Shown: positions 26,260-44,143 of the stretch, in pieces
How the letters are laid out: the number at the start of each line of letters is the position of its first letter
Numbering within the stretch: position 1 is the stretch's first letter
Assembly: GCF_024749165.1 (NCBI RefSeq)
Contig: NZ_CP087190.1
Location: forward strand, 1,634,001 to 1,698,000
Length of the DNA stretch: 64,000 nucleotides
DNA from: Pseudomonas sp. B21-023
GTDB lineage: Bacteria; Pseudomonadota; Gammaproteobacteria; Pseudomonadales; Pseudomonadaceae
Direction: 5' to 3'
Position numbers and translations under genes: made by a program
Notes under the pieces: model-generated
Seen by the model: only the letters and a program-made list of their open reading frames with translations
The model's database searches: none
Told to the model about the DNA's origin: nothing

Positions 26260-29200
26260 GTGAACGCACAACCCCTTGTCACCATCGCCATCCCTGCGTT
26301 CAACCCTGAGTTCTTCCGTGCCACACTGGCCAGCGCAATCGCCCAGGATTACCCGAATCTGGAGATTGTCGTGTGTGACGACAGCCCCGGGGGCGAGATC
26401 GAGGCGATCTGTGATGAGCTGCGTGTCACTTCGCCCGCTCCCTTGCGCTATGTGCGCAACCCGGTGCGCCTTGGTTTCGCCCGCAACCTGCTGGCTTGCC
26501 TGACGCACACCTCGGGCGAGCTGATCAAGTTCCTCTGTGACGACGACACGCTGTTTGCCGGCTGTATCAGCCAGCAGTCCAGTGTGCTCGGCGAGTCGCA
26601 GCAGATCAGCATGGTCATTTGCCAGCGCCTGTTGTGCGCCGCCGATGACGTGCTGTTGCCTTCACGCGCGCTGAACTTCGTTATTTCCATGCACAGTGCA
26701 GTGCTGCATGGCACCGACCTGCTGGAAAGCGTCGCCGATGATGCACCCAACCTGTTCGGTGGCTTGAGCCATGCCTTGCTGCGCCGTGCCCAGGTCGAAG
26801 CGTATCTGCCCACCCTGGTGCAGGATGGGCAGGGTTTTTCCGCTCGCCTGGACCTGGCGCTCTACGCTTGCGTTCTGCGCCGGGGACAGCTGGCCAGCCT
26901 GGAGCAGGTGCTGAGCATGGAGCGGGTGCATCCGGGGCGTCTTAGCCATCAAGGCACCATGGTCGAGGCCTACAAGAGCGAAACCCAGTGGCTGCTGCAA
27001 ATGCTTGCTGAACGCAATGCCGAGCCGGCGCCTGCCCACGGTTGGGTGCGCTACATGCCGTTGGCGGACTACCTGGAAAACCCGCAGCAGAAGTGGGACG
27101 AGCTCGACTTGCGGCGCTTCTTCGGGGCGCAGATGGCCAACTTCAACCAGCAGATCGGTACCCACAGCCTGAGTTTTGCCGAGCTGTACGCTGAATGGCT
27201 CGAGTATCGCCGGCTGTCCGCCGGGCAGGAGCGGCTCTTGCCCAAGCGTGTGGAGCAATGGCCAAGCCAGCCGGGAATCGCGGTGGTGGTGTTCTGTGAG
27301 GCAGGCGACGAAAAGGTGCTGCGTGCGACGCTGGACAGTCTCTGGAAGCAATCCTACCCGGCCCGACAAGTTCTGGTAGTGACGCCTGAGGGTTTCGAGC
27401 GGCCGGTGGAAGAGCGTGTTCGTTACCTGGTGCGCGGCGATGCCGAGTTCATCTCGCTCAACCATTGGCTGGCGGACGGTCCGGCACTTGACTGGTTGTT
27501 CCTGCTGCGTGCTGGCGACTGCCTGCATACCCATGCGCTGGTGATCATGGCCGAGCGCATGGCGCTGCGTGGTGACAGCCTGTGCCTGTACATCGATGAG
27601 GGGGCCAACGACAGCCTCGCCGCGTCGGCACCAATCTTCAAGCCGGACTTCAACCTCGACCTGATGCGCAGCCTGCCCTACGTCGGGCGCCTGTTGGCAT
27701 TCGATACTGCGGCGGTGCGTGAGCTTGGGGGATTTGACGCCAGATTCGAAGGCCTGGCGCCTCACGACCTGCTGTGGCGAATGATCGAGGCCCATGGCCT
27801 GCAGGTGGTAGAGCATATCCCTGAAGTGCTGGTGCAGTGCCGACACGGCTATGCCGAATGGCTGGCTGATCGTGCGGGCCATGTCCAGGCGCCGCGGGTT
27901 CTGGAGGCGCACCTGCGGCGCCTGGGTGTGGAGGCGCAGGTGCAGGGTATTGCTGGCAGCCTGATGACTCGGGTCACCTACCTGCACCCCCAGGTTGCGA
28001 GCGTTTCGATCATCATTCCTGCCGTTGGCGACCTGGCGGTACTGGTGCGTTGCGTCGAGTCTGTGCTGGCCAGTACCGAGCATCCCGATTTCGAGGTGGT
28101 GCTGGTCGCCAGCGCCGGGACGTCGGACGATGTACTTACCTGGCTCGACAGTTTGCGGAATCTGGGGAGCGAGCAATTGCGGGTGCTCGAGAGTGCCGCC
28201 CATGGCCGAGCGCAGAGCTTCAACGAAGGCAGTGTGCACGCTCGGGGCGACTATCTGCTACTGCTGGATGCCGGCTGCGTGCTGTTCGAGCCGCAGTGGT
28301 TGTCCGAGCTCTTGCAGCTTGGCCAGCGTCCCGAAGTCGGGATGGTCGGGCCCAAGTTGTTCGACAACAGTGGGACCGTGGTCTCGGCAGGCCTGGTCCT
28401 GGGGATGCAGGCCACGGCGGCCAGTCCATTCCTGGGCTGCCCGGTGAACGAAGGCGGCTACATGAATAGGCTGAGCCTGGTACAGAACTGGAGCGCGCTG
28501 AGTCTGGACTGCCTGTTGGTGCGGCGTGAGCTGTTCGCCGAGCTGGGAGGGCTGGATACGGCCGCGCTGCAGGTATCGCTGCACGACGCCGACCTGTGCC
28601 TGCGGGCACGGGCCGCGGGTTATCTGTCGGTGTGGACGCCGTTCGCGCGGGTGGCCAAGCTGGGCGCCCAGGCGGTCGAGGAAAGCTCGCCACGAAGCTG
28701 GCAGGATGATCGCGATGCCTTGTATGCGCGCTGGCTGGCCTGGGTGGCGAATGATCCGGCCTACAACCGCAACCTCAGCCTCAAGTTGCCGAACTTCAAC
28801 TTCGACCCCGGATTGCGGGGTGGGTGGGATCCGTTCATCGCGCGGGCCATGCCGTCTGTCCTGGCGCTGCCGAGCAGTACCTCGGCGATCGGACACTATC
28901 GGGTGGTCCAACCGTTCAATGAGCTGGAGCAGTCTGGCTGGATCCAGGGACGTATCGACTACAGCGCGCCGGGGCTGATCGACCTCGAGCGGGAAAAGCC
29001 CGATGTGGTGATCCTGCAGTGCCGCTACCTGCCGGCGAATGTCCGGGATATCGAACAGTACAAGCGCTTTTCCAGTGCGCGGCGGATCTACGAGCTGGAC
29101 GACTACATCATTGATCCACCGAAGAAGAACGACCATGCGCGCAACATGCCGAGCAACATGCGCGAGCTGGTCAGCAAGGCGATTTCCCTGTGCGACCGGG

Positions 29201-29835
29201 TGGTGGTCTCCACCGAACCATTGGCCGATGCGCTGTCCAGCATGCACCAGGACATCCGTGTCGTCCCCAACATGCTCGCCGCATCGCTGTGGAGCGAGCT
29301 GACCAGTCAGCGCCAGACCAGCGTGCGGCCGCGTGTGGGGTGGGCAGGGGGTACCAGTCACCGCGGTGATCTGGAATTGATGCTGGATGTAATCAAGACC
29401 TTGGCCAGCGAAGTCGACTGGGTGTTCTTCGGCATGTGTCCAGAGGCGCTGCTGCCCTACGTCAAGGAGTTTCACCCGGGGATCTCTTTCGCGGACTATC
29501 CGCGCAAGCTGGCCAGTCTCAACCTGGACCTGGCGGTGGCGCCGTTGGAGCAGAACCTGTTCAACGACTGCAAGAGCAACCTGCGCCTGTTGGAGTATGG
29601 CGCGTGCGGTTTTCCGGTCATCTGCACCGATACCAAGGCATACGCAGGCTACCTTCCCTGCACGAGGGTCCGCGAGAACACCACCGAGCAGTGGCTGGAC
29701 GCGATCCGCATGCACCTTGCCGACCCGATGGCCAGCTACCGCCAGGGCGATGCGTTGCGCGAGGCGGTCCTGCGAGACTACGTACTGAACGAACACCATC
29801 TGCAGCACTGGGCCAACGCCTGGCTGGCTGACTGA
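26260..29835 (+). CDS. Large multidomain glycosyltransferase, flagellin glycosylation type (Fgt-like)
   Basis: 1191 residues with a GTG start at 26260. Four modules are visible. (1) A GT2 domain, about residues 3-230 (LVTIAIPAFNPEFFRATLAS), with an intact DDD at 94-96. (2) A GT2-like module, about 340-560, where the DxD region reads RAGD. (3) A GT2 domain, about 580-830 (VSIIIPAVGDLAVLV), where the DxD position reads DAG at 669-671. (4) A GT-B-like domain, about 865-1190, with CKSNLRLLEYGACGFPVICT around Glu1112. Size, domains and position between flgL and fliC match the Fgt proteins that glycosylate flagellin in P. syringae. It probably acts on flagellin in the cytoplasm. Sugar specificity is unknown. 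Confidence 0.85.
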   Translation: MNAQPLVTIAIPAFNPEFFRATLASAIAQDYPNLEIVVCDDSPGGEIEAICDELRVTSPAPLRYVRNPVRLGFARNLLACLTHTSGELIKFLCDDDTLFAGCISQQSSVLGESQQISMVICQRLLCAADDVLLPSRALNFVISMHSAVLHGTDLLESVADDAPNLFGGLSHALLRRAQVEAYLPTLVQDGQGFSARLDLALYACVLRRGQLASLEQVLSMERVHPGRLSHQGTMVEAYKSETQWLLQMLAERNAEPAPAHGWVRYMPLADYLENPQQKWDELDLRRFFGAQMANFNQQIGTHSLSFAELYAEWLEYRRLSAGQERLLPKRVEQWPSQPGIAVVVFCEAGDEKVLRATLDSLWKQSYPARQVLVVTPEGFERPVEERVRYLVRGDAEFISLNHWLADGPALDWLFLLRAGDCLHTHALVIMAERMALRGDSLCLYIDEGANDSLAASAPIFKPDFNLDLMRSLPYVGRLLAFDTAAVRELGGFDARFEGLAPHDLLWRMIEAHGLQVVEHIPEVLVQCRHGYAEWLADRAGHVQAPRVLEAHLRRLGVEAQVQGIAGSLMTRVTYLHPQVASVSIIIPAVGDLAVLVRCVESVLASTEHPDFEVVLVASAGTSDDVLTWLDSLRNLGSEQLRVLESAAHGRAQSFNEGSVHARGDYLLLLDAGCVLFEPQWLSELLQLGQRPEVGMVGPKLFDNSGTVVSAGLVLGMQATAASPFLGCPVNEGGYMNRLSLVQNWSALSLDCLLVRRELFAELGGLDTAALQVSLHDADLCLRARAAGYLSVWTPFARVAKLGAQAVEESSPRSWQDDRDALYARWLAWVANDPAYNRNLSLKLPNFNFDPGLRGGWDPFIARAMPSVLALPSSTSAIGHYRVVQPFNELEQSGWIQGRIDYSAPGLIDLEREKPDVVILQCRYLPANVRDIEQYKRFSSARRIYELDDYIIDPPKKNDHARNMPSNMRELVSKAISLCDRVVVSTEPLADALSSMHQDIRVVPNMLAASLWSELTSQRQTSVRPRVGWAGGTSHRGDLELMLDVIKTLASEVDWVFFGMCPEALLPYVKEFHPGISFADYPRKLASLNLDLAVAPLEQNLFNDCKSNLRLLEYGACGFPVICTDTKAYAGYLPCTRVRENTTEQWLDAIRMHLADPMASYRQGDALREAVLRDYVLNEHHLQHWANAWLAD

Positions 29836-29885
29836 ATCCTGGCGCCTGGCCAAGCCAGGTGCCGAACCCCTTGAACAGGTGCCCT

Positions 29886-32624
29886 ATGAACGAAACAACA
29901 CTCGGATCGCGTGATGAAGTGACCGTCGTCCTGCTCGGGCATGAGCAGGCGGATCACCGTGCTCGTGCGGCGCACTACTATCAGCGGGCTGGCGTGCCGT
30001 GCCAGGGCCTGACGCCGGCAGCGGTGGTCGATGCTGCCGCCCTGGGAGAATTGCTGGCACAGGTGGCGACGCCGTTCGTTTGCCTGGCGCTGGATGCCGA
30101 TTTCGTCCTGGGTGCCGCGCTGGACAATGCGGTGCGGTACCTACGTGCCCAGCCGGAGGTAATGGCCGTGCAAGGCCACGCCCTGGCCTATGCGCCTGGT
30201 AATAGCCAGCTGACCTACCACAAGGTGGGGGAAGCTTTCGCTGCACATCCCGGGGAGAGTGTGCTGGATCGCTTGCGACACTACGCGGACGCCGAACAGC
30301 AAGCCTGGCGTGCGGTAATTCGTACGCAGGCGCTACGGGCCGCACTGGTGTCGCTGCCGGAAGGGCTCGATGCTGCAGGCTGGCGGGTGGCTTTGTCCTG
30401 CGCAATCCTGCTGCTCGGGGCAGTCGCGCATCTGGAGCAGACCGATGTGATCTGCGAATCGCAGCCTGAGAAACTGTCCTCTGCCGTGCGCGAGGAGCGT
30501 ATGGTCCAGACTGTGCGGGCTTTGCGTCAGTGGGGCGGCGGGCATGATGCGAGCGTCCTGTCCGCTGATGACGGCTTCGAGGCGCTCAATCGTTTCGTGC
30601 GCAAAACCTGGTGCCAGGGCGAGCAGCCGCTTCTCTTCACCTCGCGCTGGACCAGCGTGATCGATGACCCGGCGCGTTCGTTCGAGCCCGAGCAGCATGT
30701 GGAACTGCCTTATTACAATCGCCCGTTGTTCGATCGGTTGACCGAGGTGGAGTTCCTCTGTCATGCCTGGCCGACCGGCAAGCGTCATCGGCATGCCCTC
30801 GAGGGGGCCTGGGTCCGTCAGCGCGACCTGCTGGTGACGCACCCCAATGACACCCGTGAGAGCCTTCAGGAGCGTTACTGGAAGGCGCTGGGCCTGGGCC
30901 TTTTCAATGTCCAGGTGTGCCGCTCCCTCAACCAGGTGCTGACCGGTGAGGACAACACGCACCATGCCCGTGAGATGGGGGACTGGATGGCGCGGCTGCT
31001 CGGGGTGCCGGACAGCGAGACACGCCATTCCCTGCTCGACACGCCATCGGGGCAGGTGCTCGCGGCGATCGATGCGGCCACCCCGGATGAAGCTGCGCGC
31101 AAGCGGGTGCTGGCCCACCTGGCAAAACACCCGGCGCCGCAGATCGCCTTCGTCGTGCTTGACCTGAACAACGATGATCTGGCCTTGCAGGCAACCTTCG
31201 ACAGCCTGTTGGCCAGCGGCGTGCGCAATTTCAAGCTGGTGGTGCTCAAGGCCGGCAAGCCGCCAGCGATTACTACCGCGCGGGACACCTTGCACTTCAT
31301 CCAGGTCGCAGAGGGCAACTGGGTCTCGCATCTGAACCAATTGGTGCGCCAGTTGCCCAGCGAGTGGCTGCTGTTGCTCGAGGCCGGCGATGTGCTTCTT
31401 GCTGGCGGGCTCATGCGCCTGGCGGTAGAGCTTGCCCAGGCCCCGGCTTGCCATGCCATCGCCGCCGACGAAGTCCAGCGTGACAGTGATGGGCGCCTGT
31501 TCGCCGTGCGCCGGCCTGGCAGCGATCTGGACCTATTGCGTAGCCAACCGGGGCTCATGGCGCGGCACTGGCTGGTTCGTCGTCAGGCCGTGCTCGACCT
31601 GGACGGCTACAACGGTACCGACCCGCAGACCCTGGATTATGACTTGCTGTTGCGCCTGGTCGAGCATCACGGTGCAGCCAGCCTGGCGCACATGGATGAC
31701 TACCTGGTGGTCAGCCAGCAACCTTCCTCGGCATCCACCGAGGAGGCACGCAAGATCCTCAATCGCCACCTCACCCAGCTGGGCTATCGCCCGCAGATCA
31801 GTGAGCAAGGGGCAGGAGGGTTGGCGATCGAGTTCCGCCATAGCGCCACACCGCTGGTCAGCATCGTGCTGGCGGGCGAGGTCGAGCCTGCGTGGCTGGC
31901 CGGCATTTTCCAGCGAACCCGCTACCCGCGCTACGAAGTGGTGCTGGCGCTTCCCGGGCAACCTTCAGCGGCCCAGGTCGAAGCGTTCCAGGCATTGGGT
32001 GGCCGACTGCGGGTCGTAACCGGCGAAGTCGGGGCAACGCATCGGCAACTGCTCGGCCTGGCGGCCGGCGAGGCTCGTGGCGATTACCTGGTGTTGCTGT
32101 CGCCGCATTGCCAGGTCATTACCCCGGCCTGGATCGAATCGCTGTTGAACGAGGCGCAGAGGCCTGAAGTAGGGGTTGTCGGTGCGAGCTTGTGGGCGGC
32201 TGACGGTACGTTGGCGCACGCAGGCTATCAGCTGCTGGCCGGCCCCAGAGTGCATGCCCCCTGGCGGCAACTGTCGCTCGAGGGTGCCGCAAAGGCCCGC
32301 TGGCCGCTGTCGGTGCGCAGTTGTTCCGCGGTCTCGGATGGTTGCCTGATGGTGGACCGTGAAGCCTTCGTGCACTGCGGTGGCCTGCCGCTCGCAGGGG
32401 ATATCGGTGTCGGCTTGAGCCTGATGGTCGCCCAGGCTGGGTTGATGGTGGTCTGGACGCCTCGCGCGCAGTTGCTTGCCACGGCCCTGCCGGTCCTGGG
32501 TGATGAGGCGTCTTCGCAATTGGCGGCGCATTGGCCTGAGGCTTTCCAGGGGGATGGTCAACTGGACTCCCTTGGCGCGGGTGAAGCGTCACCGTCCAGC
32601 AACTGGATCGCTCAGTTGGGATAA
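29886..32624 (+). CDS. Second large glycosyltransferase-like protein (Fgt paralogue without the C-terminal GT-B module)
   Basis: 912 residues from the ATG at 29886, preceded by CAGGTG. The N-terminal glycosyltransferase-like part has LALDADFVLG with DAD at residues 70-72. A central module (about 415-600) repeats the island pattern SDLDLLRSQPGLMARHWLV, but its DxD position reads LLEAGDVLL near 499. The last module (about 655-890) is GT2-like (YEVVLALPG, AQRPEVGVVGASLW), but DxD is replaced by SPH at 739-741. It stops before the GT-B module of its two relatives. Only the first module keeps a normal metal-binding motif, so one activity is likely and the others may be structural. It follows the first gene after 50 bp. 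Confidence 0.75.
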   Translation: MNETTLGSRDEVTVVLLGHEQADHRARAAHYYQRAGVPCQGLTPAAVVDAAALGELLAQVATPFVCLALDADFVLGAALDNAVRYLRAQPEVMAVQGHALAYAPGNSQLTYHKVGEAFAAHPGESVLDRLRHYADAEQQAWRAVIRTQALRAALVSLPEGLDAAGWRVALSCAILLLGAVAHLEQTDVICESQPEKLSSAVREERMVQTVRALRQWGGGHDASVLSADDGFEALNRFVRKTWCQGEQPLLFTSRWTSVIDDPARSFEPEQHVELPYYNRPLFDRLTEVEFLCHAWPTGKRHRHALEGAWVRQRDLLVTHPNDTRESLQERYWKALGLGLFNVQVCRSLNQVLTGEDNTHHAREMGDWMARLLGVPDSETRHSLLDTPSGQVLAAIDAATPDEAARKRVLAHLAKHPAPQIAFVVLDLNNDDLALQATFDSLLASGVRNFKLVVLKAGKPPAITTARDTLHFIQVAEGNWVSHLNQLVRQLPSEWLLLLEAGDVLLAGGLMRLAVELAQAPACHAIAADEVQRDSDGRLFAVRRPGSDLDLLRSQPGLMARHWLVRRQAVLDLDGYNGTDPQTLDYDLLLRLVEHHGAASLAHMDDYLVVSQQPSSASTEEARKILNRHLTQLGYRPQISEQGAGGLAIEFRHSATPLVSIVLAGEVEPAWLAGIFQRTRYPRYEVVLALPGQPSAAQVEAFQALGGRLRVVTGEVGATHRQLLGLAAGEARGDYLVLLSPHCQVITPAWIESLLNEAQRPEVGVVGASLWAADGTLAHAGYQLLAGPRVHAPWRQLSLEGAAKARWPLSVRSCSAVSDGCLMVDREAFVHCGGLPLAGDIGVGLSLMVAQAGLMVVWTPRAQLLATALPVLGDEASSQLAAHWPEAFQGDGQLDSLGAGEASPSSNWIAQLG

Positions 32625-32973: not shown

Positions 32974-33399
32974 ATGAAAAAAATGTTGAGCCGGATTTCG
33001 ATCTTGGCCATTGCTTTTGGTGCGGCCCTCACCGTGCAGGCAGGCGAAGCTCCATTGGGATACTGGAAGCTGACCACATATCATGTGTCCAGCGGTGCTG
33101 TTGCCACTATTCAAATGGTCTGTTTCAAGCCCGACAAGACCTGGTATTCCACTACTGAAGCCAAATGGAATGGTGCATGGTTTGCAAACGGCAGTGATAT
33201 CCAGTGGTATGGCAATGTGCCGCTCGCTCATTACGGCAATGTTGCGACTATTGGTATCGGTGAGATGTCGACGCCAACCAGCATGTCGGGGAAGTATGCC
33301 GAGTGGTCGGCACCGGGGGCGACACCGTACAGTTTTGACAGGCATTACACCTATGCGCTGATTTATCAGCAGGCTGACTGCCCGCCGCCAAAACTGTAA
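32974..33399 (+). CDS. Small secreted protein of unknown function in the glycosylation island
   Basis: 141 residues. TTAAGGAAATTAAACG before the ATG supplies a ribosome binding site. The signal peptide is MKKMLSRISILAIAFGAALT, cleaved near VQA-GEA. The mature part is rich in Trp and Tyr (GYWKLTTYH, FANGSDIQWYGNVPLAHYGN) and has two Cys, one near the middle and one in the C-terminal ADCPPPKL. This looks like a small beta-rich exported domain. I do not recognise a family. Its codons use more A/T than its neighbours, so it may be a later arrival in the island. No obvious link to glycan synthesis. Confidence 0.7.
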   Translation: MKKMLSRISILAIAFGAALTVQAGEAPLGYWKLTTYHVSSGAVATIQMVCFKPDKTWYSTTEAKWNGAWFANGSDIQWYGNVPLAHYGNVATIGIGEMSTPTSMSGKYAEWSAPGATPYSFDRHYTYALIYQQADCPPPKL

Positions 33400-33772
33400 A
33401 TCGAAATCCGCCAAGGCCAGGTGCTATCAAGAAAGCGCGCCAACCAGTATCGCGGGTTTCAGTGCTTGGCGCATTGGGTGCGTCTGGTCATGCCTGGCAT
33501 CCCGGGGCTGGCCGGCGGGGGCTTCGCTATCCGTCCAAAACCGCTTTGATAGCTGTCGGGCAAGGCCGGGAGGGCTGCGGCCCCTGTCGAAATCCATTCC
33601 GCGACTGTCTCCATGAACGCCATCAAGGGAACAAGGGGCTACGTGTTATTAGCCGGGCGCGAGCTGGCGCGGGATTTGCAAAAGCCGGGTTACAAGCCCG
33701 GCTTTTTCTTGCCTGGTGGCGGTTTATTGACAGGCAGAATGCAGTGCCTGTGCTGTGCCTATGAGGTTCGGG
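33400..33772. other. Intergenic region with a terminator; no gene seen
   Basis: 373 bp between the secreted-protein gene and the WbqC-like gene. Short open frames here (for example 33613-33867) run through the terminator hairpin and have no recognisable content. A TTGACA at 33727-33732 has no matching -10 at the usual distance. Confidence 0.6.
33681..33709 (+). terminator. Rho-independent terminator upstream of the WbqC-like gene
   Basis: AAAGCCGGG, TTACAAG, CCCGGCTTT, then TT and CTT. This strong hairpin isolates the following sugar-modification genes from upstream transcription, so they need a promoter between 33710 and 33773 or readthrough. Confidence 0.88.
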
Positions 33773-34474
33773 ATGCAAAAGAAAGTGGCGGTGGTGCAAT
33801 CGAACTACATCCCGTGGAAGGGGTATTTCGACCTGATTCGCAGTGTCGATGCGTTCGTTTTATATGACGATGTCCAGTACACGCGTCGCGACTGGCGTAA
33901 TCGCAATAAGATCAAGACCGCCCAAGGTGAGCACTGGCTTAGTGTTCCGGTAAAAAACCGCGGTCGATACGAGCAACTGATCAATGAAGTCGAGGTCAGC
34001 GAGGCGGATTGGGCGGCCAAGCACTGGAAGACAATCGAGATGAACTATCGGCGAGCCGCCTGCTTCAATCAGATGGAGCTCCCCGTTCGCACGCTTTACG
34101 AGCAAGCCTCCGAGGTCGCTCGTCTTTCCTCCATCAACCAGCTTTTCATCACCGGCCTGTGTGCTCTGCTCGGTATCGATACACCGCTGTATCGCTCCGA
34201 GGAACTCGGGCGTAGCAGTGAAGGTAAAAACCAACGGTTGATACATCTTTGTCAGGCCCTTGGGGCGACCGAATACCTATCGGGACCGGCAGCCAGCAGC
34301 TATCTGGACGAGGCTGCGTTCGCCGCTGGCGGCCTTGAAGTCTCGTACATGAGCTATGCCGGCTATCCGGAGTATCCGCAGTTGTTCGGTGGGTTTGAGC
34401 ATGCGGTCAGTGTCCTCGACCTGCTGTTCAATACCGGTAGTGAAGCATCGAACTTTCTGGAGCGTCATCCATGA
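33773..34474 (+). CDS. WbqC-like family protein
   Basis: 233 residues from the ATG at 33773, with TGAGG six bases upstream. The N-terminus VAVVQSNYIPWKGYFDLIRS and VLYDDVQYTRRDWRNRNKIK are diagnostic for the WbqC-like family, found in O-antigen and sugar-modification loci. The later segments KNQRLIHLCQALGATEYLSG and YPEYPQLFGGFEHAVSVLDL also fit. Its biochemical role is not firmly established. In loci with amino-sugar genes it is suspected to act in N-acylation. It overlaps the next gene by four bases (ATGA), so the two are translationally coupled. Confidence 0.85.
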   Translation: MQKKVAVVQSNYIPWKGYFDLIRSVDAFVLYDDVQYTRRDWRNRNKIKTAQGEHWLSVPVKNRGRYEQLINEVEVSEADWAAKHWKTIEMNYRRAACFNQMELPVRTLYEQASEVARLSSINQLFITGLCALLGIDTPLYRSEELGRSSEGKNQRLIHLCQALGATEYLSGPAASSYLDEAAFAAGGLEVSYMSYAGYPEYPQLFGGFEHAVSVLDLLFNTGSEASNFLERHP

Positions 34475-35106
34475 GCAAAGATATCTTGCAGGGTGTGGCG
34501 GATTACTATTCGTCGCGTATTCGTACGCACGGCGCAACTCCAGAGGGGGTCGACTGGAATGGCAGCGCTTCCCAGCAACAGCGTTTTGCCCAGTTGCTTA
34601 AACTGGTGCCCGTCGAAGAGCAACGTGCGGGCTTCAGTCTTATCGATGTCGGGTGCGGTTACGGCGCGTTGCTGACCTGGATGCGTGAGCAGGGACTGCC
34701 TGTGGACTATCACGGTTATGACCTGTCCGAGCAGATGATTGCCGCAGCCAGGCAGCAGCATCCGGCTGATGACGCAGTGCGCTTCGAAGTGGCCGAAAGT
34801 GCGTCGCGACAGGCGGATTATGCGGTGGCCAGTGGCATCTTCAACGTTTGTCAGAACACCGCTCGCGACACGTGGGAGAGGTACATCGCCGACGTATTGC
34901 GTGCGATGGATGCCTGCAGCCGCAAAGGCTTTGCCTTCAATTGCCTTACCTCGTACTCGGACCCGCCCTTCATGCGTGATTATCTGTATTACGGGGATCC
35001 TTGTTTCTATTTTGATCTGTGCAAAAGAACCTACTCCAGAGAGGTGGCACTCTTGCATGACTACGGCTTGTACGAGTTTACCTTGCTTGTGCGCAAGTCT
35101 TCCTGA
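34471..35106 (+). CDS. Class I SAM-dependent methyltransferase
   Basis: 211 residues. SAM-binding motif I is FSLIDVGCGYGALLTWM near residues 54-70, followed by the acidic loop VDYHGYDLSEQMIAAARQQH. The post-motif segment YAVASGIFNVCQNT is consistent with a small-molecule methyltransferase. Given its neighbours, a nucleotide sugar or an acyl substituent on the sugar is a reasonable substrate, but this is inference. The start overlaps the WbqC-like stop. Confidence 0.8.
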   Translation: MSKDILQGVADYYSSRIRTHGATPEGVDWNGSASQQQRFAQLLKLVPVEEQRAGFSLIDVGCGYGALLTWMREQGLPVDYHGYDLSEQMIAAARQQHPADDAVRFEVAESASRQADYAVASGIFNVCQNTARDTWERYIADVLRAMDACSRKGFAFNCLTSYSDPPFMRDYLYYGDPCFYFDLCKRTYSREVALLHDYGLYEFTLLVRKSS

Positions 35107-35920: not shown

Positions 35921-37300
35921 ATGTTTCTGATTGTTGGTAATGGCATGGTCGCCCTGGCTATCGCCGCAGGTTTGTCGCGTAGTGTTCCGGGCGAGTGCAT
36001 TCAGGTTGTGGGCCCGGCAGCACGCCCTTACAGCGCCTCCATGGCGGCTGCGGCAATGCTCAACTCTTTCGCCGAGCTCGAGCCTGGCGCACTCGATCAG
36101 CCGCGTGATCGTCTGAAGTTCGAGTTAAGCCAGGCATCTGCTCGTCTGTGGGGAGATTTCGTAAAAGAATTCGATATTCCTGCTGAACACTACCGTCTGG
36201 GCACCGTGCTGATAAACAACAACGCATCCAACCGTTTCGAGGATGCCGCATTCGATGCCATCGCCGGTTATCTTGACGAGTTCGACGAGCCTTATGAACG
36301 CGTCGATCCGCAGCTGGAACCCGCCTATGTGCCGGGTGAGAGCTATCGTACGCGCCAGGCTTTGTTCCTGCCGCGCGAGGGCGTACTCAATCCGGATGGT
36401 GTGATCCATGCGCTGCAGGCCACGCTGGAAAGGCGTGGTGTGCGCTTTGTCGATGGCGTGGTGAAGTCGCTCGACAAGGTCAGCGGTCGTACCCGTGGCG
36501 TAACCCTCGAAGACGGGCGCGTGCTCAGCGCCGAGCGGATTGTGTTGGCCAACGGCAGCATGGCCACGCGCCTCTGGGAGGAGGAAGGCTGCATTCGGGT
36601 GATCAATGGCGTCGGCGCCACGGTGGTGTTGAAGAACCCAGGAATACAGGGGCGCTATGTCCTGCGCACGCCAAATCGTGGCGGTGCTTGCGGAATCTAC
36701 CACGCGCCCTACCAGGGTGATCAGTTCGTCGTCGGTGCCACCAATCTGGTGACCACCGCCGACGAGCACTTCCCTCGCGCAGAGTCGGTGGCCGCGCTGA
36801 TAAACGGTGCGATCAACCAGGTCAACCATCTGCACCGTACCAGTGGTTTCATTCGTTACAACTTTGGCTATCGTCCGCTGAGTCTCGATGGCTACCCGGT
36901 CATCGGCCAGCTTAACGACAACACCTTCATTGCTTCCGGCACTCGCCGTGATGGTTACCATTTTGCGCCATGGTTGGCCGACAATCTGGTGGCCTTGCTG
37001 CTGGACAAGTCGATTTCCTCGCAGGCCGGCAGCTACTTCGAATTCACCCGGCCGCAGCGTAGCGCATGGCTCGACCAGTCGGTGGAGGCATGCTGTCGCA
37101 AGTACGCGGCAGTCAAGTGCTCGGCACTGTCGCAGCACGGTTTGGATGCGGGGCATACCGACGCCGATCAGGTGCTGGAGCAGTATTACTACCAGCGGGC
37201 GCGCGCCTTCTTCGATAAGCATGAGCTCGAGCGAACAGTTCAGGTCGACTTCCTGGATGCCCTGCTGGGTGGCTACCTTTCCCTGTCGGACTTTGCCTGA
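35921..37300 (+). CDS. FAD-dependent oxidoreductase of the DAO (glycine/D-amino-acid oxidase) family
   Basis: 459 residues. The N-terminal dinucleotide-binding motif is FLIVGNGMVALAIAAGLSR (GxGxxA variant). The C-terminal FAD-contact region of the DAO family reads FGYRPLSLDGYPVIGQLNDN and ASGTRRDGYHFAPWLADNLV. The last 100 residues are extra and unassigned. DAO-family enzymes oxidise amines, usually amino acids. The substrate here could be an aminoacyl group or an amino sugar intermediate, but the sequence does not decide. GGGGG lies 6-10 bases before the ATG, and the gene is 10 bp after the TylF-like gene. Confidence 0.8.
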   Translation: MFLIVGNGMVALAIAAGLSRSVPGECIQVVGPAARPYSASMAAAAMLNSFAELEPGALDQPRDRLKFELSQASARLWGDFVKEFDIPAEHYRLGTVLINNNASNRFEDAAFDAIAGYLDEFDEPYERVDPQLEPAYVPGESYRTRQALFLPREGVLNPDGVIHALQATLERRGVRFVDGVVKSLDKVSGRTRGVTLEDGRVLSAERIVLANGSMATRLWEEEGCIRVINGVGATVVLKNPGIQGRYVLRTPNRGGACGIYHAPYQGDQFVVGATNLVTTADEHFPRAESVAALINGAINQVNHLHRTSGFIRYNFGYRPLSLDGYPVIGQLNDNTFIASGTRRDGYHFAPWLADNLVALLLDKSISSQAGSYFEFTRPQRSAWLDQSVEACCRKYAAVKCSALSQHGLDAGHTDADQVLEQYYYQRARAFFDKHELERTVQVDFLDALLGGYLSLSDFA

Positions 37301-37318
37301 AGCGTGAATACCGGAGAC

Positions 37319-38479
37319 ATGAACGTGAACAAGCAGATCATTCCTTTCAATAAGCCATTTGTGGTTGGCAAAGAGCTGTTCTATATCGCCCAGGCGGTGA
37401 TGAATGGTGGTATCGCCGGCGATGGACAGTTCACGCGCTTATGCCAGGAATGGCTCGAGGTCAGCCTGGGGTGTCCCAGGGCGCTGCTGACGCATTCGTG
37501 CACGGCGGCCCTCGAGATGGCGGCGATCCTGGCGGATATCGGGCCGGGAGATGAAGTCATCATGCCGTCGTTCACTTTCGTGTCCACTGCCAACGCTTTC
37601 GTTCTTCGCGGCGCGGTGCCGGTTTTCGTGGATGTGCGCGAGGATACCCTCAACCTGGACGAGCGCCTTATCGAGGCCGCCATCACCGAGAAGACCAAGG
37701 CGATTGTCGCGGTGCATTATGCGGGGCAGCCTTGCGATATGGCTGCCTTGCTGCACCTGTGCGACAAGCACGGTCTGATTCTCATTGAAGATGCCGCCCA
37801 GGCGATCCTCGCCCGGGAAAAGGATCGCGCACTGGGGACCTTTGGGCATCTGGGATGCCTGAGTTTTCATGAAACGAAGAATGTGATCAGCGGTGAAGGA
37901 GGGGCGCTACTCATCAACGATCCCAAGTTGATTGAGCGGGCTGAAATCATCTGGCAGAAAGGTACCAATCGCAAAGCGTTTTCCCGAGGCGAGGTGAGCA
38001 AGTACACCTGGGTGGATGTGGGGTCGTCTTTTCTTCCCAGCGAGCTGACGGCTGCTTTCCTCTATGCCCAACTAGAGCAGGGGGAGAGCATCAATGTACA
38101 TCGTCGCGCTTTGTACAAGTCCTATTACCACCAACTAGAGCCTCTCGAAGCGGACGGTTGCTTGACCTTGCCTTGCGCGCCGGGTGGCAAGCCGGCCAAC
38201 GCACATATCTTCTATATATTGATGCGTAGCAACGAGGCGCGTGGAGAGTTGATCGCGTTTCTTCGTGAGCGGGGTATCTATGCTGTGTTCCACTACGTGC
38301 CCTTGCATGATTCCCCGGCAGGCCTGCGTTACGCGCGCAGTGTCGGTCAGTTGCCTGTCACTCAGGAAGTTTCTGCAAGCTTGCTGCGCCTGCCGCTTTA
38401 TTCTGACATGACCATCGAGCAGGTCACCGAGGTGTGCGAGGCGATCTTCCAATTCTTCGCAGGTACGCAGAAGGCGTAA
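37319..38479 (+). CDS. dTDP-4-keto-6-deoxyhexose 4-aminotransferase (WecE/RffA type, DegT family)
   Basis: 386 residues. Its closest match by eye is E. coli WecE: IPFNKPFVVGKELFYIAQAV at the N-terminus, LLTHSCTAALEMAAILADIG, EVIMPSFTFVSTANAFVLRG, the PLP lysine in SFHETKN, and IERAEIIWQKGTNR followed by KYTWVDVGSSFL. WecE makes dTDP-4-amino-4,6-dideoxygalactose (Fuc4N). A close relative could instead make the gluco epimer (viosamine). Start: the ATG at 37319 is only two bases after GGAG, so the GTG at 37325 may be the real initiator; the GTG at 37304 is less likely. It supplies the amino sugar donor for this island. Confidence 0.88.
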   Translation: MNVNKQIIPFNKPFVVGKELFYIAQAVMNGGIAGDGQFTRLCQEWLEVSLGCPRALLTHSCTAALEMAAILADIGPGDEVIMPSFTFVSTANAFVLRGAVPVFVDVREDTLNLDERLIEAAITEKTKAIVAVHYAGQPCDMAALLHLCDKHGLILIEDAAQAILAREKDRALGTFGHLGCLSFHETKNVISGEGGALLINDPKLIERAEIIWQKGTNRKAFSRGEVSKYTWVDVGSSFLPSELTAAFLYAQLEQGESINVHRRALYKSYYHQLEPLEADGCLTLPCAPGGKPANAHIFYILMRSNEARGELIAFLRERGIYAVFHYVPLHDSPAGLRYARSVGQLPVTQEVSASLLRLPLYSDMTIEQVTEVCEAIFQFFAGTQKA

Positions 38480-38525: not shown

Positions 38526-41500
38526 ATGTCGAATTCCGTGCAGGTGGGCGCGGGCCTTGAGCAGGCCATGAAGCGTCTTCGGTTGATGTATGCCCGGCCG
38601 GAGCACCCGTACTACATCATGGCGCCGGACTACCGGGAAACCTCATCGGGGATTGCCTCGCTTCATTACCTCTGTCACCTGCTCAACCTCAACGGGCGAG
38701 AGGCCTACATCCTGGGCGGCAAAGTGGTGAACCCCGAGCTTAAGACGCCGTTGCTCGATGATGAGGCCAGCGAGCGTCACAGGCTTGCTGGTCGGGTGCC
38801 AATCGCAGTCTACCCCGAGGTCACGGTGGGCAACCCCTTCCATTGTTCGGTCGTGGCACGCTTTCTGTTGAACTTCGAAGGTTTCATCAGTGGGCGAGGA
38901 ATGGAGGCGGCTCCCAGTGACCTGTGTTTTTACTCAGGCAAGCTGATCGCGCAAGACCACGGTCGTCCGGATGGTGACCTGTTGTGCCTGCCTACCATCG
39001 ATGTGGACCTGTTCTGTGCCGGAGAGCCAGTTGATCGGCGTGAAGGCCGGTATCTGTATCAGAATCGCCATCCGCTCGATGCCATTGACTATTCGATACT
39101 GCCAGAGGATATCCGCCTACTGAGCATGGCGAACGCTCTGACGTTGTCGGAGCTGGCGCAGCTGCTTCGCCGGGCGGAGGTGATGTATACCCATGAATGG
39201 TCGATGACCTGCGTAATCGCGGTGCTTTGCGGGTGTCCGGTCATTTTCATACCTGGGCATGGCATCGACCAGGCCTTCCTCGATGCCAGCTTTGTCGGCA
39301 GTGCCGGCTTCGCCATGCTGGATCGCGAAGATGCGTTGGCACATGCCCGTGGAGGTCTGGATGGCGCTTTGCAGCGTTATGTCGAGCGAACGGCGCCGTT
39401 CTGGAATCAGCTTGAAGTGTTCATCGCCAAGACGCAGGCGGCCGCCCGTCGTGAAGCCGTGGGTGATCGGCTAGGAGGGCGTGGCTGGTTGCGTCAGCGT
39501 TATCCCCGGCCGCGGCAGATGCAGGTGATTGATGAGCATCTGGCCAGTGCTACTGCTGTGCGCTTTGTCGTGCTGGTAAAGGACCATGGTGACGATGCAG
39601 CGCTGGCGGTTACCTTGGATAGCCTGGCTCGCGGCCTGTATCGGGGGGTGCAGACCTGTGTGCTTGATAGGGATGGTTCCCGGGTGGGGGCGGTCACGGC
39701 AATTGATGCCTGCCTGCAGGGGGGCTCCGATGAATGGTTCATGCTGGTCGATGCGGGCACCGAGTTTACCGCCAGTGGTCTGCTGATGACGGCGCTCGAG
39801 CTGGTTCGGGCCTCGTCGGACTGCTTGGCTGTCTACGCTGACGAGGCCTTGTGTCAGGCGCAGGGCGTAGTCGAGACCGCATTACGGCCTGATCTGAATC
39901 TGGATATGTTGCTGGCTTTCCCGGAGAGCCTGTCGCGACATTGGCTGTACCGATGCGATGCTTGGCGTCAGCTAGGCGCTTTCAGCGAGGCTGCTGGTCG
40001 TGCGCTCGAGCTGGATTATCAGTTGCGTTTGATCAGTGAGCGCGGGTTGGGATGCGTTGGTCATGTCAGTGAGCCGTTGCTGATTGGCAATGCGTTGCTG
40101 CTACAGCCGTGTGAAGACGTTTGCGCGGTCATCGAGGCGCACCTGCAGGGGCGAGGATATCTCGGCGCTCGGGCGTTGCCATTGCCCACTGCTCCTGGTC
40201 GCTATCGAATCGAGTACGCGCATCAACAGTCGGCCTCGGTCAGCATCATCATTTTCCTTGAAGGGCAGTTGGTGAACTTCCAGCGTTGTCTGGAGGGCTT
40301 GCTGGCGCAGACGGCTCATGTCGGGTACGAAGTATTGCTGGTTGAGCCGGGCAGCGACGATGAGGTGCTACTGGACTGGTTGGCGATGGTCGGGCAAATG
40401 GGGGAGGGGCGCTTCAAGGTCCTTCGCTTCGAGCCCGGCCATGCACGCGCGGCCATGTGCAATGCGGCAGCCGAGCAGGCTCGTGGCGATTATCTGCTAT
40501 GGCTGGATGCTGATAGCGTGGTGCTTGATGATGATTGGCTGCCCACGTTGCTCAATCATGCCCAGCGTCCGGAGGTGGGGGCGGTTGGTTGCAAGCTGTT
40601 GTCCCGCGATGGTGCTATCCATCAGGCAGCCCTGGTGCTGGGGCTGGGGGGCGGGGTTGGGCGTGCCTTCGAGGGGCGGTCGGTGCAGGATCCGGGTTAC
40701 ATGGGGCGCCTTGGGCTGGAGCAGGATTGTTCGGCTGTCGGTGGTGAGTGTCTCATGGTGCGCCGCTCGCTGTTTGTCGAGCTTGGTGGCTTCGATACCG
40801 ATCCGTTGTATTCCCGCTGGGCGGCTGTGGACCTGTGCCTGCGGTTGGCTCAGGCGGGTTATCTGAATGTCTGGACGCCTCACGCCAGGGTGTTGCTGGA
40901 TGCTCCGCCGCCTGCGCCGGCCAGTGCCGAGCAGGAGGAAGCGCTATATGCGCGCTGGTTGCCGCAGTTGGCGCATGATGCGGCGTACAACGTCAACTTT
41001 TCGCTGAGTACCGGCGAGGAGTTCGCCGTTCAGGGCTATGAAATGAGTTGGCGACCGTTGCAGGGGGTGGTGCCAAGCGTGCTGGCCTTTGTGGTCGATC
41101 AGGAGCAGGCAGTACCCTCGCGGCTGCTGGAACCCATGGAGTCCTTGCGTGAGGCAGGTCGTCTGGAGGGTGCGGTGGTCGCCGGGACATTGTCAGCCGT
41201 GGAAATAGAACGCTTCAATCCCTCAAGTGTTGTCCTGCAGGGGGCGCTGGATGAGGCTGGGTTATTGACCTTGCGTAGGCTGCGAGCTTTCTCGCAGGCG
41301 TTCAAGGTCTACGATCTGGATCGTTATCCGCAGGACCTGGGCGGTGCGCAGTTGCTTCATGCCGAAGATCTGGAGCGGCGTATCCGGCCCGCAGTGATGC
41401 AGGCTGACAGGGTGCTGGTTGCAACAGCTGCCGCAGCCGAGAGGCTGCAGGGTTGGCATGACGATGTCCAGGTGCTCGAAAATGTGCTGCCAGCTTCGTG

Positions 41501-42035
41501 GGGACGCTTGCAAGGGGGGCGGCGCGCAGGAGAGAAACCCCGCGTGGGATGGCTCGGGTGTCGTGATGCGTACCTGCTCGCCGAAGTAGTGCCGGTGCTG
41601 GTGGGCGAGGTCGACTGGGTTGTGCTGGGGGATTGTCCTGCCAGCTTGTTGCCCTATCTCAAAGAGCATCATCATGCTGTGGATGCGCAATCCCTTGGTG
41701 TCACCCTGGCTGCCTTGGACCTGGACATCGCCCTTGTGCCGATGGGCGAGTCTGAGGTGAACGCATTTTCCGGTGACGTGCGTGTGCTCCAGCATGCGGC
41801 GTGCGGTCAGTCGGTAATCTGTAGTCGGGTGGCTGGCTTCGCAGGTGGCGATACCTTGCCATTGTCGAGGGTGAGCAATCAGGCCTGTGACTGGATTCGG
41901 GCGATACGTCTGCATCTTGATGATCGTGATGCATCTGCGGCCCTTGGCAGCGCCCAGCAGGCGATGGTGCGCAGTGATTGGTTGCTTGAGGGACAGAGGC
42001 TGGACGCCTGGCGACGCGCCGTGCTCGCGGGTTGA
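38526..42035 (+). CDS. Third large multidomain glycosyltransferase (Fgt-like) with an N-terminal GT-B-like module
   Basis: 1169 residues. (1) Residues 15-330 form a GT-B-like N-terminal module (YYIMAPDYRETSSGIASLHY, YTHEWSMTCVIAVLCGCPVI) that the other two lack. (2) A GT2-like module, about 345-540, has degenerate DxD (DAG at 409-411). (3) A GT2 domain, about 570-800 (VSIIIFLEGQLVNFQRCLEG), has intact DAD at 661-663. (4) A C-terminal module, about 870-1165, is homologous to that of the 26260 gene, but Glu is replaced by Gln1089 in VRVLQHAACGQSVI and the nearby lysine is lost. Modules 1 and 3 are therefore the likely active ones. It is the last plus-strand gene before a terminator. Confidence 0.82.
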   Translation: MSNSVQVGAGLEQAMKRLRLMYARPEHPYYIMAPDYRETSSGIASLHYLCHLLNLNGREAYILGGKVVNPELKTPLLDDEASERHRLAGRVPIAVYPEVTVGNPFHCSVVARFLLNFEGFISGRGMEAAPSDLCFYSGKLIAQDHGRPDGDLLCLPTIDVDLFCAGEPVDRREGRYLYQNRHPLDAIDYSILPEDIRLLSMANALTLSELAQLLRRAEVMYTHEWSMTCVIAVLCGCPVIFIPGHGIDQAFLDASFVGSAGFAMLDREDALAHARGGLDGALQRYVERTAPFWNQLEVFIAKTQAAARREAVGDRLGGRGWLRQRYPRPRQMQVIDEHLASATAVRFVVLVKDHGDDAALAVTLDSLARGLYRGVQTCVLDRDGSRVGAVTAIDACLQGGSDEWFMLVDAGTEFTASGLLMTALELVRASSDCLAVYADEALCQAQGVVETALRPDLNLDMLLAFPESLSRHWLYRCDAWRQLGAFSEAAGRALELDYQLRLISERGLGCVGHVSEPLLIGNALLLQPCEDVCAVIEAHLQGRGYLGARALPLPTAPGRYRIEYAHQQSASVSIIIFLEGQLVNFQRCLEGLLAQTAHVGYEVLLVEPGSDDEVLLDWLAMVGQMGEGRFKVLRFEPGHARAAMCNAAAEQARGDYLLWLDADSVVLDDDWLPTLLNHAQRPEVGAVGCKLLSRDGAIHQAALVLGLGGGVGRAFEGRSVQDPGYMGRLGLEQDCSAVGGECLMVRRSLFVELGGFDTDPLYSRWAAVDLCLRLAQAGYLNVWTPHARVLLDAPPPAPASAEQEEALYARWLPQLAHDAAYNVNFSLSTGEEFAVQGYEMSWRPLQGVVPSVLAFVVDQEQAVPSRLLEPMESLREAGRLEGAVVAGTLSAVEIERFNPSSVVLQGALDEAGLLTLRRLRAFSQAFKVYDLDRYPQDLGGAQLLHAEDLERRIRPAVMQADRVLVATAAAAERLQGWHDDVQVLENVLPASWGRLQGGRRAGEKPRVGWLGCRDAYLLAEVVPVLVGEVDWVVLGDCPASLLPYLKEHHHAVDAQSLGVTLAALDLDIALVPMGESEVNAFSGDVRVLQHAACGQSVICSRVAGFAGGDTLPLSRVSNQACDWIRAIRLHLDDRDASAALGSAQQAMVRSDWLLEGQRLDAWRRAVLAG

Positions 42036-42128: not shown

Positions 42129-42908
42129 TCAGCAGAAGCTGATATTGTGCTGCTGGCTTCCGTAGACCACACGCGCTGCGGTGATCAGCTGGTAGGGGAT
42201 TTCGACGTAGGGGACGTCCGAGTTGGTCAGGGCCATGTCCATCAACTGAACGAGCATGGAGTTCTTCCTGACCAGGATTACATCCGACCAGTCGGTATTG
42301 GTCATGGCGACCGGGATGAAATCAGAGCGTTTGATGAAGCTGCCCAGTGCTTCGAGCACGCCCAGGTTCTGTTTGGTGCCATTCGGGCTGTGGCAGCAGT
42401 CATTGAGCATGATGAAGCCGTCTTCGGCGACCAGGTCCTGGTAGTACATCAGGTCGCGCAGGATATATTCGTACTGGTGGTTGGCATCGATGTACACCAG
42501 GTCGAACTTGCTGATGTCGGTTTCCTGTCGGATTTTTTCGATGGCGCCGATGGTCTCGGAACGGATAATTGTCACTTCCGGCAGGTGGGTGAAGCGTTCC
42601 CGGCATTCTTCGTACAGTTTGTCCCAGGTCTGCTGGTCGTGAAGCGAGCCCCCGTAGTAATAGGCGTAGGTATCGACGGGAGCGACCCAGGGCGGCAGTT
42701 GATCGAAAGGGCTGTACGCATCGTTGGCCGCCTTGCTCCAGCTGTCGATGAGCACCATCTTTTCCGGCGACAGCGCCGAGTGAATTTTCAGTGCGTTTTC
42801 TCCGCGCAGAACCCCAAGCTCGGCGACGATCGGACGCTTTTCCATTATTTGGAAAAGTGCGCCCAGCAGCGTGTACAGATTTTCCCGATGGGTGTGGCAG
42901 ACCTTCAT
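42129..42908 (-). CDS. Class I SAM-dependent methyltransferase (Methyltransf_24-like), opposite strand
   Basis: 259 residues from the ATG at 42908, with AAAGGA seven to twelve bases before it. The SAM motif is PIVAELGVLRGENALKIHSA. The motif FDLVYIDANHQYEYILRDLM, with its Asp-Ala-Asn-His, is characteristic of the Methyltransf_24/cephalosporin hydroxylase-like group. LNDCCHSPNGTKQNLGVLEA follows. It is the only minus-strand gene between flgL and fliC. Its family suggests methylation of a small polar substrate, probably a sugar. Confidence 0.78.
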   Translation of the reverse strand: MKVCHTHRENLYTLLGALFQIMEKRPIVAELGVLRGENALKIHSALSPEKMVLIDSWSKAANDAYSPFDQLPPWVAPVDTYAYYYGGSLHDQQTWDKLYEECRERFTHLPEVTIIRSETIGAIEKIRQETDISKFDLVYIDANHQYEYILRDLMYYQDLVAEDGFIMLNDCCHSPNGTKQNLGVLEALGSFIKRSDFIPVAMTNTDWSDVILVRKNSMLVQLMDMALTNSDVPYVEIPYQLITAARVVYGSQQHNISFC

Positions 42909-43207
42909 TGCGCTGTCCTTTATCGTTGGGTGGTCTTGCTTGCAGAGGCCGAATCCGCACAGGTTCAATTCGCTTCGGTTCGGCCCGGTATTCTGGATCT
43001 GGGTTAGCTAACGCAAGATATGTGCCGCTGGCGTGCCTTGCATGTGGCTGTATAGGTGGGAGAAATGCATCATTGCGTGACTTGGCAGTCGAAACGTGCA
43101 TCTTTAATCTATTGAGTCAGCGGGCAGCCTCGTCGATGCGGTAGGCAGGGTGCATGATCTTGGTCGCGAAGCCCGCGAATTTTCGCCATTTCCATCGGGA
43201 AGCCACA
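42909..43207. promoter_or_regulatory. Divergent intergenic region between methyltransferase and KAS III-like genes
   Basis: The 299 bp between the starts must hold promoters for both genes. A perfect palindrome GTTAGCTAAC lies at 43003-43012 and could be a binding site. No sigma-54 or sigma-28 element with proper spacing was found. Confidence 0.45.
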
Positions 43208-44143
43208 ATGATTGGCATCAAAAGCATCGCCAGTTACGTACCTGCAGAGGGTGTCGACAATTACGCCCAGGGTGCGAAATTCGGCAAGGATCAGGATTTT
43301 ATCTTCGGCAAGATCGGTTCGACCTTCCTGCCGCGCAAGGGTGTCGATCAGGAAACCTCCGACCTGTGCGTCGAGGCCGCTCGGGCACTGTTTGCTGGCA
43401 ACCCGGAGCTAGATCCGGCGTCCATCGATGTGGTGATCGTCGTTACCCAGAACGGCGATGCCGAAGGCCTGCCGCATACCGCGGCGATCGTCCAGAACAA
43501 GCTGGGCTTGTCTACCGCCATCGCTGCCTTCGATATCTCGCTGGGCTGCTCCGGCTATGTCTATGGCCTGTATGCCATGAAGGGGTTCATGGATGCCGCG
43601 GGGCTGAAGAATGGCTTGTTGATCACCGCAGATCCCTATTCGAAGATTGTCGACCCTGAGGACCGCAACACCACCATGCTGTTCGGCGATGCTGCAACGG
43701 CCACCTGGATGGGAGAGGGCGCTGCCTGGCGGCTGGGCAAGTCGCTGTTTGGCAGTGATGGGGCGGGTGCCGAGCACTTGCGCACCACCGAAGGCACGTT
43801 CTTCATGAATGGTCGTCAGGTCTATAATTTTGCCCTGGTCAAGGTGCCGGCGCACCTGCAGCAGTTGCTCGAGACCAGTCACTTGAAGGCCGAGGATATT
43901 GACCTTTACTGCCTGCATCAGGGGAGCGCGGCGATCGTCGATGCGGTCTCGCAGCGTTTCGACGAGGGGCGTCAGCGCGAGAAGTTCGTCAAGGACATGG
44001 TCGAGACTGGCAATACCGTGTCTTCGAGCATTCCGCTGCTATTGGAAAAGCATGTGATCGGCTCGCAGTGCAGGCGTGTCGCGCTCAGTGGTTTCGGCGT
44101 CGGTCTGTCGTGGGGCTCGGCAATCATCGAGCGCAATGGCTAA
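43208..44143 (+). CDS. 3-oxoacyl-ACP synthase III (KAS III/FabH-like) of the flagellin glycosylation locus
   Basis: 311 residues from the ATG at 43208; the frame upstream has no homologous content. The thiolase-fold triad is present: Cys114 in DISLGCSGYVYG, His237 in LYCLHQGSAAIV and Asn269 in TGNTVSSSIP. A KAS III-like gene lies at the same place beside fliC in P. syringae (orf3) and P. putida. In P. syringae the viosamine carries a 3-hydroxybutanoyl group, so this enzyme probably primes a short 3-oxoacyl chain for the sugar rather than for membrane lipids. RBS GGAAG. Confidence 0.9.
   Translation: MIGIKSIASYVPAEGVDNYAQGAKFGKDQDFIFGKIGSTFLPRKGVDQETSDLCVEAARALFAGNPELDPASIDVVIVVTQNGDAEGLPHTAAIVQNKLGLSTAIAAFDISLGCSGYVYGLYAMKGFMDAAGLKNGLLITADPYSKIVDPEDRNTTMLFGDAATATWMGEGAAWRLGKSLFGSDGAGAEHLRTTEGTFFMNGRQVYNFALVKVPAHLQQLLETSHLKAEDIDLYCLHQGSAAIVDAVSQRFDEGRQREKFVKDMVETGNTVSSSIPLLLEKHVIGSQCRRVALSGFGVGLSWGSAIIERNG

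Follow-up and report, generated by a model that had tools for sequence, protein, structure and literature searches.

A Pseudomonas flagellin glycosylation island of rare gene content that encodes a candidate amidine-forming flavoprotein

The island between flgL and fliC

The window analysed here, a stretch of 64,000 nucleotides from Pseudomonas sp. B21-023 (contig NZ_CP087190.1), belongs to a genome of one contig of 5.87 Mb and contains, between flgL and fliC, a plus-strand series in the order GT1, GT2, a 141-amino-acid (aa) orphan, WbqC, MT1, MT24, DAO, WecE, GT3 and KAS III (Table 1). Pfam and NCBIfam models recognise FlgK/FlgL at the upstream border and FliC/FlaG/FliD/FliS at the downstream border, and find glycosyltransferase domains in all three giant proteins, GT1 (1191 aa), GT2 (921 aa) and GT3 (1169 aa). 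The host is a Pseudomonas putida-group species, the nearest named loci to the island being those of Pseudomonas peradeniyensis and P. soli, and the interval is a flagellin O-glycosylation island; giant transferases together with KAS III inside the flgL–fliC interval identify it as one of the Pseudomonas islands of this kind, as an earlier note made from the DNA letters alone had proposed. The gene list in that note is also borne out for the three giant transferases, WecE/RffA, WbqC, DAO, KAS III and two plus-strand methyltransferases, and needs correction for the third methyltransferase, which lies on the minus strand and is the one gene found there. The G+C content is 60–66% over GT1 and GT2 and ~55–60% over the middle genes, at 33 kb–39 kb. 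The best explanation of the whole that we can offer is a flagellin island with a swappable cassette, in which the amino sugar made by WecE would be given a glycine-derived amidine by DAO; we hold it with only just less than even confidence.

Our survey covered up to 19.9 kb around and upstream of fliC in 118 Pseudomonas stretches, searched with the island proteins. The flgL–fliC interval was shorter than 2.5 kb in 40 of them, where it mostly held KAS III alone, and measured 2.5–12 kb in 18, typically with GT1, GT2 and KAS III in ~8.3 kb; it measured 12–19.5 kb in 17 and exceeded 19 kb in 28 more. The island of the window is therefore of ordinary size, and its earlier description as enlarged does not hold, but its content is rare. 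The unusual composition remarked upon in the same note is supported: the DAO gene (E<=1e-50) was present in only 6/399 Pseudomonas genomes, and among 398 sampled Pseudomonadota genomes the only DAO homologue at E 1e-60 was the window's own. A scan of named genomes yielded seven Pseudomonas loci (P. peradeniyensis, P. soli, two of P. alkylphenolica, P. farsensis, P. pudica and Pseudomonas sp. R28), all of which have the cassette flanked by flgL and fliC and keep the order GT1-GT2-WbqC-MT1-MT24-DAO-WecE-GT3-KAS3-fliC, with identities of 62–100% for nearly all genes and down to 56% for GT2. Such preservation of order and identity would not be expected of genes collected by chance. The minus-strand methyltransferase and the 141-aa open reading frame (ORF) are present in only some of these loci. 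The island is a variant of the Pseudomonas flagellin glycosylation islands, notable for its probable glycine-dependent amidine-forming enzyme.

Judged from gene arrangement, WbqC-MT1-MT24-DAO-WecE is a swappable cassette between GT2 and GT3 and constitutes the variable part of the island. In genome G127, GT3 directly follows GT2, so that the slot is empty, and in genomes G134 and G157 WbqC (72–78% identity) and WecE (56–59%) are retained while DAO, MT1 and MT24 are missing; the gap between GT3 and KAS III in the latter two genomes holds other sugar-type genes, namely those for a methyltransferase, an epimerase-family protein, an ATP-grasp protein and a phosphoesterase. The ATP-grasp protein, which stands in place of DAO (L053 15244-16218 in G157; L059 15220-16197 in G134), is perhaps another route to loading the amino sugar.

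Distant copies of the cassette were found on three IMG/VR records of ~70% G+C, L140, L141 and L143 (IMGVR_UViG_2808606876, _2808606945 and _2886203185), with the gene set MT24-DAO-WbqC-[MT1]-WecE-transferase and identities to the window of 49–50% for MT24, 35–37% for DAO, 48–50% for WbqC and 62–63% for WecE. MT1 occurs in only one of the three (56% identity), and the transferase after WecE shares the N-terminal domain of GT3. Although labelled viral, these records are probably host chromosome beside a prophage, since a TPR/GT41 protein and a chemotaxis receptor are encoded nearby; a second scan of viral sequences with the DAO of L143 as query returned the same three records and no others. That these genes are found together again at so great a divergence is our strongest indication that DAO acts jointly with WecE, WbqC and MT24.

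Table 1. Features of the flgL–fliC interval and its borders (positions in the window)
Feature	Position	Strand	Basis
flgL, upstream border	24540..26108	+	PF00669, E 7e-18
GT1, giant glycosyltransferase, Fgt1 position	26260..29835	+	PF00535, E 1e-34; many Pseudomonas have a homologue in the interval from flgL to KAS III
GT2, giant glycosyltransferase, Fgt2 position	29859..32624	+	PF00535, E 8e-7; relatives in the same position
141-aa ORF, between GT2 and WbqC	32974..33399	+	without Pfam match
WbqC-like, possible amino-sugar aminoacyl ligase	33755..34474	+	PF08889, E 1e-78; AlphaFold model; BshC fold match
MT1, class I S-adenosylmethionine (SAM) methyltransferase	34471..35106	+	Methyltransf_12, E 2e-11; accompanies WbqC in other loci
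MT24, probable deoxysugar O-methyltransferase	35143..35910	+	closest solved protein CalS11, E 6e-38
DAO flavoprotein, Orf1-like, probable glycine-dependent amidine-forming enzyme	35921..37300	+	PF01266, E 3e-38; phmmer to Orf1, E 7e-42
WecE/RffA, predicted dTDP-4-amino-4,6-dideoxygalactose transaminase	37304..38479	+	NCBIfam, two models
GT3, third of the giant glycosyltransferases, candidate for transfer of the modified amino sugar	38526..42035	+	PF00535, E 6e-17
Accessory methyltransferase, Methyltransf_24, CmcI-like, outside the conserved core	42129..42968	-	PF13578, E 7e-9
KAS III-like, adjoins fliC	43154..44143	+	PF08545/PF08541
fliC flagellin, downstream border, probable glycan acceptor	44394..45254	+	Flagellin_N, E 4e-44

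The DAO flavoprotein and its kinship with Orf1

The kinship of DAO, like the gene content, order and conservation of the island and the key residues of its enzymes, was established from sequence. Its closest solved relative is Orf1, the structure of which was deposited as N-formimidoyl fortimicin A synthase (profile E 3e-73), the next among solved structures being CmiS2 (E 3e-31). When the AlphaFold model of DAO (predicted local distance difference test score, pLDDT, 76.6) was compared with Orf1, VIA-align gave Z 39.9 over 452/459 residues, the C-terminal helical domain included, and Foldseek gave template modelling (TM) scores of 0.86/0.83 over ~472 columns, whereas glycine oxidases were matched with Z 32–35 and only over residues 1–381 or so. 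The best NCBIfam match of DAO is ThiO (TIGR02352), at 112.6 bits and thus below the cut-off of 250.8, and a separate true ThiO encoded elsewhere in the genome scores 260.7 bits. A plain ThiO identity for DAO was rejected because of this score, the want of the relay cysteine in ThiO and the extra C-terminal domain of DAO.

In Orf1, glycine is oxidised at the flavin adenine dinucleotide (FAD) site and the product is passed to Cys281. This residue lies in a second site 13.5 Å away and delivers a formimidoyl or iminoacetyl group to an acceptor amine (PMC10156733). Cys281, which is essential in Orf1 and is the site of the covalent intermediate, corresponds to Cys257 of DAO; of the proteins compared, 13 of 14 of the DAO/Orf1 type have the relay cysteine and none of 18 ThiO glycine oxidases has it, and Cys257 with its surrounding motif is retained across phyla. 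The glycine-binding residues Arg342 and Arg368 of Orf1 correspond to Arg318 and Arg343 of DAO, both of which are also found in ThiO, while T298 corresponds to T274 and, in Pseudomonas only, E312 to E288. In a tree, the island DAO proteins and their distant kin form a clade sister to the Orf1 group and separate from ThiO. From this kinship we infer that DAO works like Orf1, but we stop at this likeness and do not count DAO among the Orf1-type synthases, because Glu426 of Orf1 is replaced by Gln405. The chemistry of DAO would then be glycine-dependent and amidine-forming, with an amino sugar as substrate, a proposal that we make tentatively and with somewhat less than even confidence.

Orf1-like FAD enzymes were also seen on plasmids. 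One with the relay cysteine occurs in the P. syringae group (L014, NZ_LT985191.1, 5992-7440), with a 2-oxoglutarate/iron oxygenase and a peptide deformylase as neighbours and transposases around, and is perhaps part of a small-molecule pathway not yet known. Another, on a Streptomyces finlayi plasmid (L013, NZ_CP045703.1, 8956-10413), adjoins a non-ribosomal peptide synthetase, a methyltransferase and a RidA protein, a cluster whose product is possibly an amidine-bearing natural product.

The predicted glycan and its alternatives

WecE passes the cut-offs of both NCBIfam models (585.5 bits, cut-off 375; 546.9 bits, cut-off 434.85), hence 4-amino-4,6-dideoxygalactose (Fuc4N) is its expected product over viosamine, and the 4-amino-4,6-dideoxyhexose of the earlier note is upheld. 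The genes rmlB, rmlA and rmlC are grouped elsewhere in the genome, rmlA and rmlC having been identified from ORFs. Methylation of the glycan, also foreseen, stands as a prediction supported by the methyltransferases of the island, and the solved protein nearest to MT24, CalS11, is a TDP-rhamnose 3'-O-methyltransferase. GT3 is of the size of VioT (PMC3927599), but relatives of GT3 are also found in islands that lack an aminotransferase.

The structure of WbqC was approached through its AlphaFold model (pLDDT 92.9), no solved relative having been found by sequence. VIA-align placed BshC first (Z 14.3, root-mean-square deviation 3.2, 220/233 residues; next rows <=8.8), with class I aminoacyl-tRNA synthetases and PPAT coming after it at Z <9. 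The presumed reaction of BshC is the addition of cysteine to the glucosaminyl-malate amine (PMC4360819), and we take the modelled likeness as a lead towards a possible WbqC reaction, the attachment of an amino acid to the sugar 4-amine. The oxidised or aminoacyl-type substituent that had been guessed at thereby becomes more specific, as DAO groups with the glycine-using N-formimidoyl/iminoacetyl synthases and WbqC, as modelled, has a BshC-like fold.

Every biochemical step of the pathway that we propose is inferred. RmlA and RmlB, encoded elsewhere, would supply deoxythymidine diphosphate (dTDP)-4-keto-6-deoxyglucose, which WecE would aminate to dTDP-4-amino-4,6-dideoxy-D-galactose. DAO would oxidise glycine at its FAD and relay the glycine-derived amidine carbon via Cys257 to the sugar amine, the group transferred being N-formimidoyl or N-iminoacetyl (i.e. 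carboxyformimidoyl). The acceptor could be the sugar 4-NH2 itself, as has been proposed for the action of KasN on the amino sugar kasugamine in kasugamycin biosynthesis (PMC8869731), or the amine of an amino acid that WbqC has added beforehand; the latter would follow BD-12, in which the amino sugar first receives a glycine and Orf1 then formimidoylates it (PMC10156733). Methyl groups would be placed by MT24 and MT1 on the deoxysugar or on its side chain, GT1 and GT2 would build a short deoxyhexose stem, probably rhamnose, on FliC, and GT3 would cap this stem with the modified amino sugar. That flagellin carries a 4-amino-4,6-dideoxyhexose with an amidine on its own amine or on a WbqC-added amino acid, installed by a cysteine-relay flavoenzyme, is possible, and we put it forward with less than even confidence.

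A number of observations weigh against this proposal. Glu426, which is essential for transfer in Orf1, is represented in the island clade by Gln405, with an invariant His406 after it; Orf1 carrying the change E426Q remains able to oxidise glycine but no longer yields the transfer product (PMC10156733). The His284/Tyr294 pair near the glycine corresponds to Tyr260/Val270 of DAO, Tyr260 being the ThiO residue, though mutants of the pair in Orf1 are only partially impaired (PMC10156733). The grouping of DAO with Orf1 in the tree is moderately supported (91/93). For WbqC, Foldseek returned no significant matches with the model, and the hhalign probability for the pair WbqC–BshC was 0.8%, no better than controls, with shallow alignments (effective sequence number, Neff, ~3.4); homology by profile was thus not obtained, and the claim is limited to fold. 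Finally, L140, L141 and L143 are without a flagellin gene in the stretch examined.

The same replacement of Glu426 favours an alternative in which DAO is a plain oxidase of glycine, of another amino acid or of an N-glycyl or N-methyl group on the sugar, leaving an oxidised aminoacyl or alkyl substituent and transferring no amidine. It would suit the Pfam assignment to DAO, the nearest NCBIfam model being ThiO, and the identity of Tyr260, Arg318 and Arg343 to ThiO residues. We nevertheless consider it unlikely, in that Cys257 and its motif are kept across phyla and absent from ThiO, and that the domain forming the acceptor site of Orf1 is present in the DAO model. Less probable still is an N-acylated and methylated, viosamine-like 4-amino-4,6-dideoxyhexose for which KAS III feeds the acyl group and DAO and WbqC have side roles. 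The P. syringae glycan does bear a 3-hydroxybutanoyl group and a methyl group (PMC3927599), and KAS III is encoded in the island. However, KAS III adjoins fliC in 101/118 stretches, including islands without any other gene, and since it is present even without a transferase or aminotransferase it does not predict an acyl group and was rejected as a sign of N-acylation. Furthermore, no acyltransferase, acyl carrier protein (ACP), ketoreductase, VioB or VioR was found among the island proteins (genes elsewhere in the genome were not searched), and the VioB-type N-acylation predicted earlier is accordingly dropped. A role of the cassette in a different surface polysaccharide (O-antigen or exopolysaccharide), its place between flgL and fliC being incidental, is very improbable, even though WbqC and MT1, often with RffA, travel together without DAO in polysaccharide-type clusters on Rhizobium and Azospirillum plasmids and the GC-rich records showed no flagellin gene, since 7/7 named loci place it between giant flagellin-type transferases next to fliC and other species fill the slot with other sugar genes.

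If transfer of a glycine-derived amidine by DAO is correct, cysteine-relay amidinylation, so far described only for aminoglycoside antibiotics, would also modify protein glycans, and WbqC would be a member with an assigned role in a widespread family whose activity is not known; for this common family of polysaccharide clusters the island offers a handle on function, as a possible amino-sugar aminoacyl ligase. Glycine-based amidinylation would likewise be a more general amino-sugar tool, not special to a few antibiotics, because a matching gene set, with a flavoprotein of 35–37% identity, occurs in another GC-rich bacterial lineage. Flagellin glycans matter for motility and for how plant and animal hosts recognise the bacterium, and those known from Pseudomonas vary mostly in acyl and methyl groups; a positively charged amidine would alter the filament surface. 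In open-licence literature, none of the matches listed for 'formimidoyl' with 'flagell' was, judged by title and abstract, on flagellin sugars, and no paper linking WbqC to flagellin glycosylation was found.

Accessory genes and comparison with known systems

Of the two WbqC start codons considered, the Met codon at 33773 is more likely than that at 33755, and the MT1 start overlaps the wbqC end by 4 bases. The 141-aa ORF, which has a signal-peptide-like start and sits in a 1.1-kb gap between GT2 and WbqC, was otherwise seen only in P. peradeniyensis; other relatives have ~100–420 bases at this place. Relatives of the minus-strand methyltransferase were found only in P. peradeniyensis, P. soli, P. 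farsensis and genome G156, the last (L039) having a 70% homologue in opposite orientation in a small island without the cassette. A plus-strand ORF at 42048-43007 (319 aa) was rejected as a gene, being the shadow of this methyltransferase.

The closest known counterpart of DAO, Orf1 of BD-12 (N-formimidoyl fortimicin A synthase), shares with it the DAO/GR2 fold, an extra C-terminal helical domain, the relay cysteine, the arginine pair and a full-length match; it differs in sequence (25–27% identity), in the residues at Glu426 (Gln in DAO) and His284 (Tyr in DAO) and in its setting, an antibiotic cluster and not a flagellin sugar island. The acetamidino sugars of Campylobacter flagellin (Pse5Am7Ac and Leg5Am7Ac) resemble the proposed product in having an amidine on a flagellin sugar (PMC3958885). 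The group there is acetimidoyl and is carried by nonulosonic acids, and it is not known to be the work of a glycine-oxidising flavoprotein, other enzymes being responsible. KasC and KasN of the kasugamycin pathway offer a parallel division of labour, an aminotransferase making the amino sugar and a glycine oxidase-like enzyme proposed to add carboxyformimidoyl (PMC8869731), but on a UDP-sugar and for an antibiotic, and KasN is likened to DAO by its described reaction. BshC resembles WbqC in predicted fold, and WbqC would likewise act on an amino-sugar amine, but sequence-profile homology between the two was not detected and the mechanism of BshC itself is unsettled (PMC4360819).

Among flagellin islands, the P. 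aeruginosa PAK a-type island also has sugar genes and transferases near fliC, with viosamine reported; as described in the part of the source consulted, it differs in having the VioA-like OrfA and the acyl genes OrfB–OrfE, with DAO and WbqC not named there (PMC3927599). The P. syringae system of fgt1/fgt2 and a viosamine island (vioA, vioM, vioT, vioS, vioB, vioR and acp) is like that of the window in its giant transferases and KAS III between flgL and fliC, its 4-amino-4,6-dideoxyhexose, its methylation and its transferase of ~1170 aa (PMC3927599). The island of the window differs from it in its WecE-type aminotransferase, in the absence of VioB, VioR and ACP from the island, in the position of its sugar genes inside the flgL–fliC interval and in the additional presence of DAO and WbqC.

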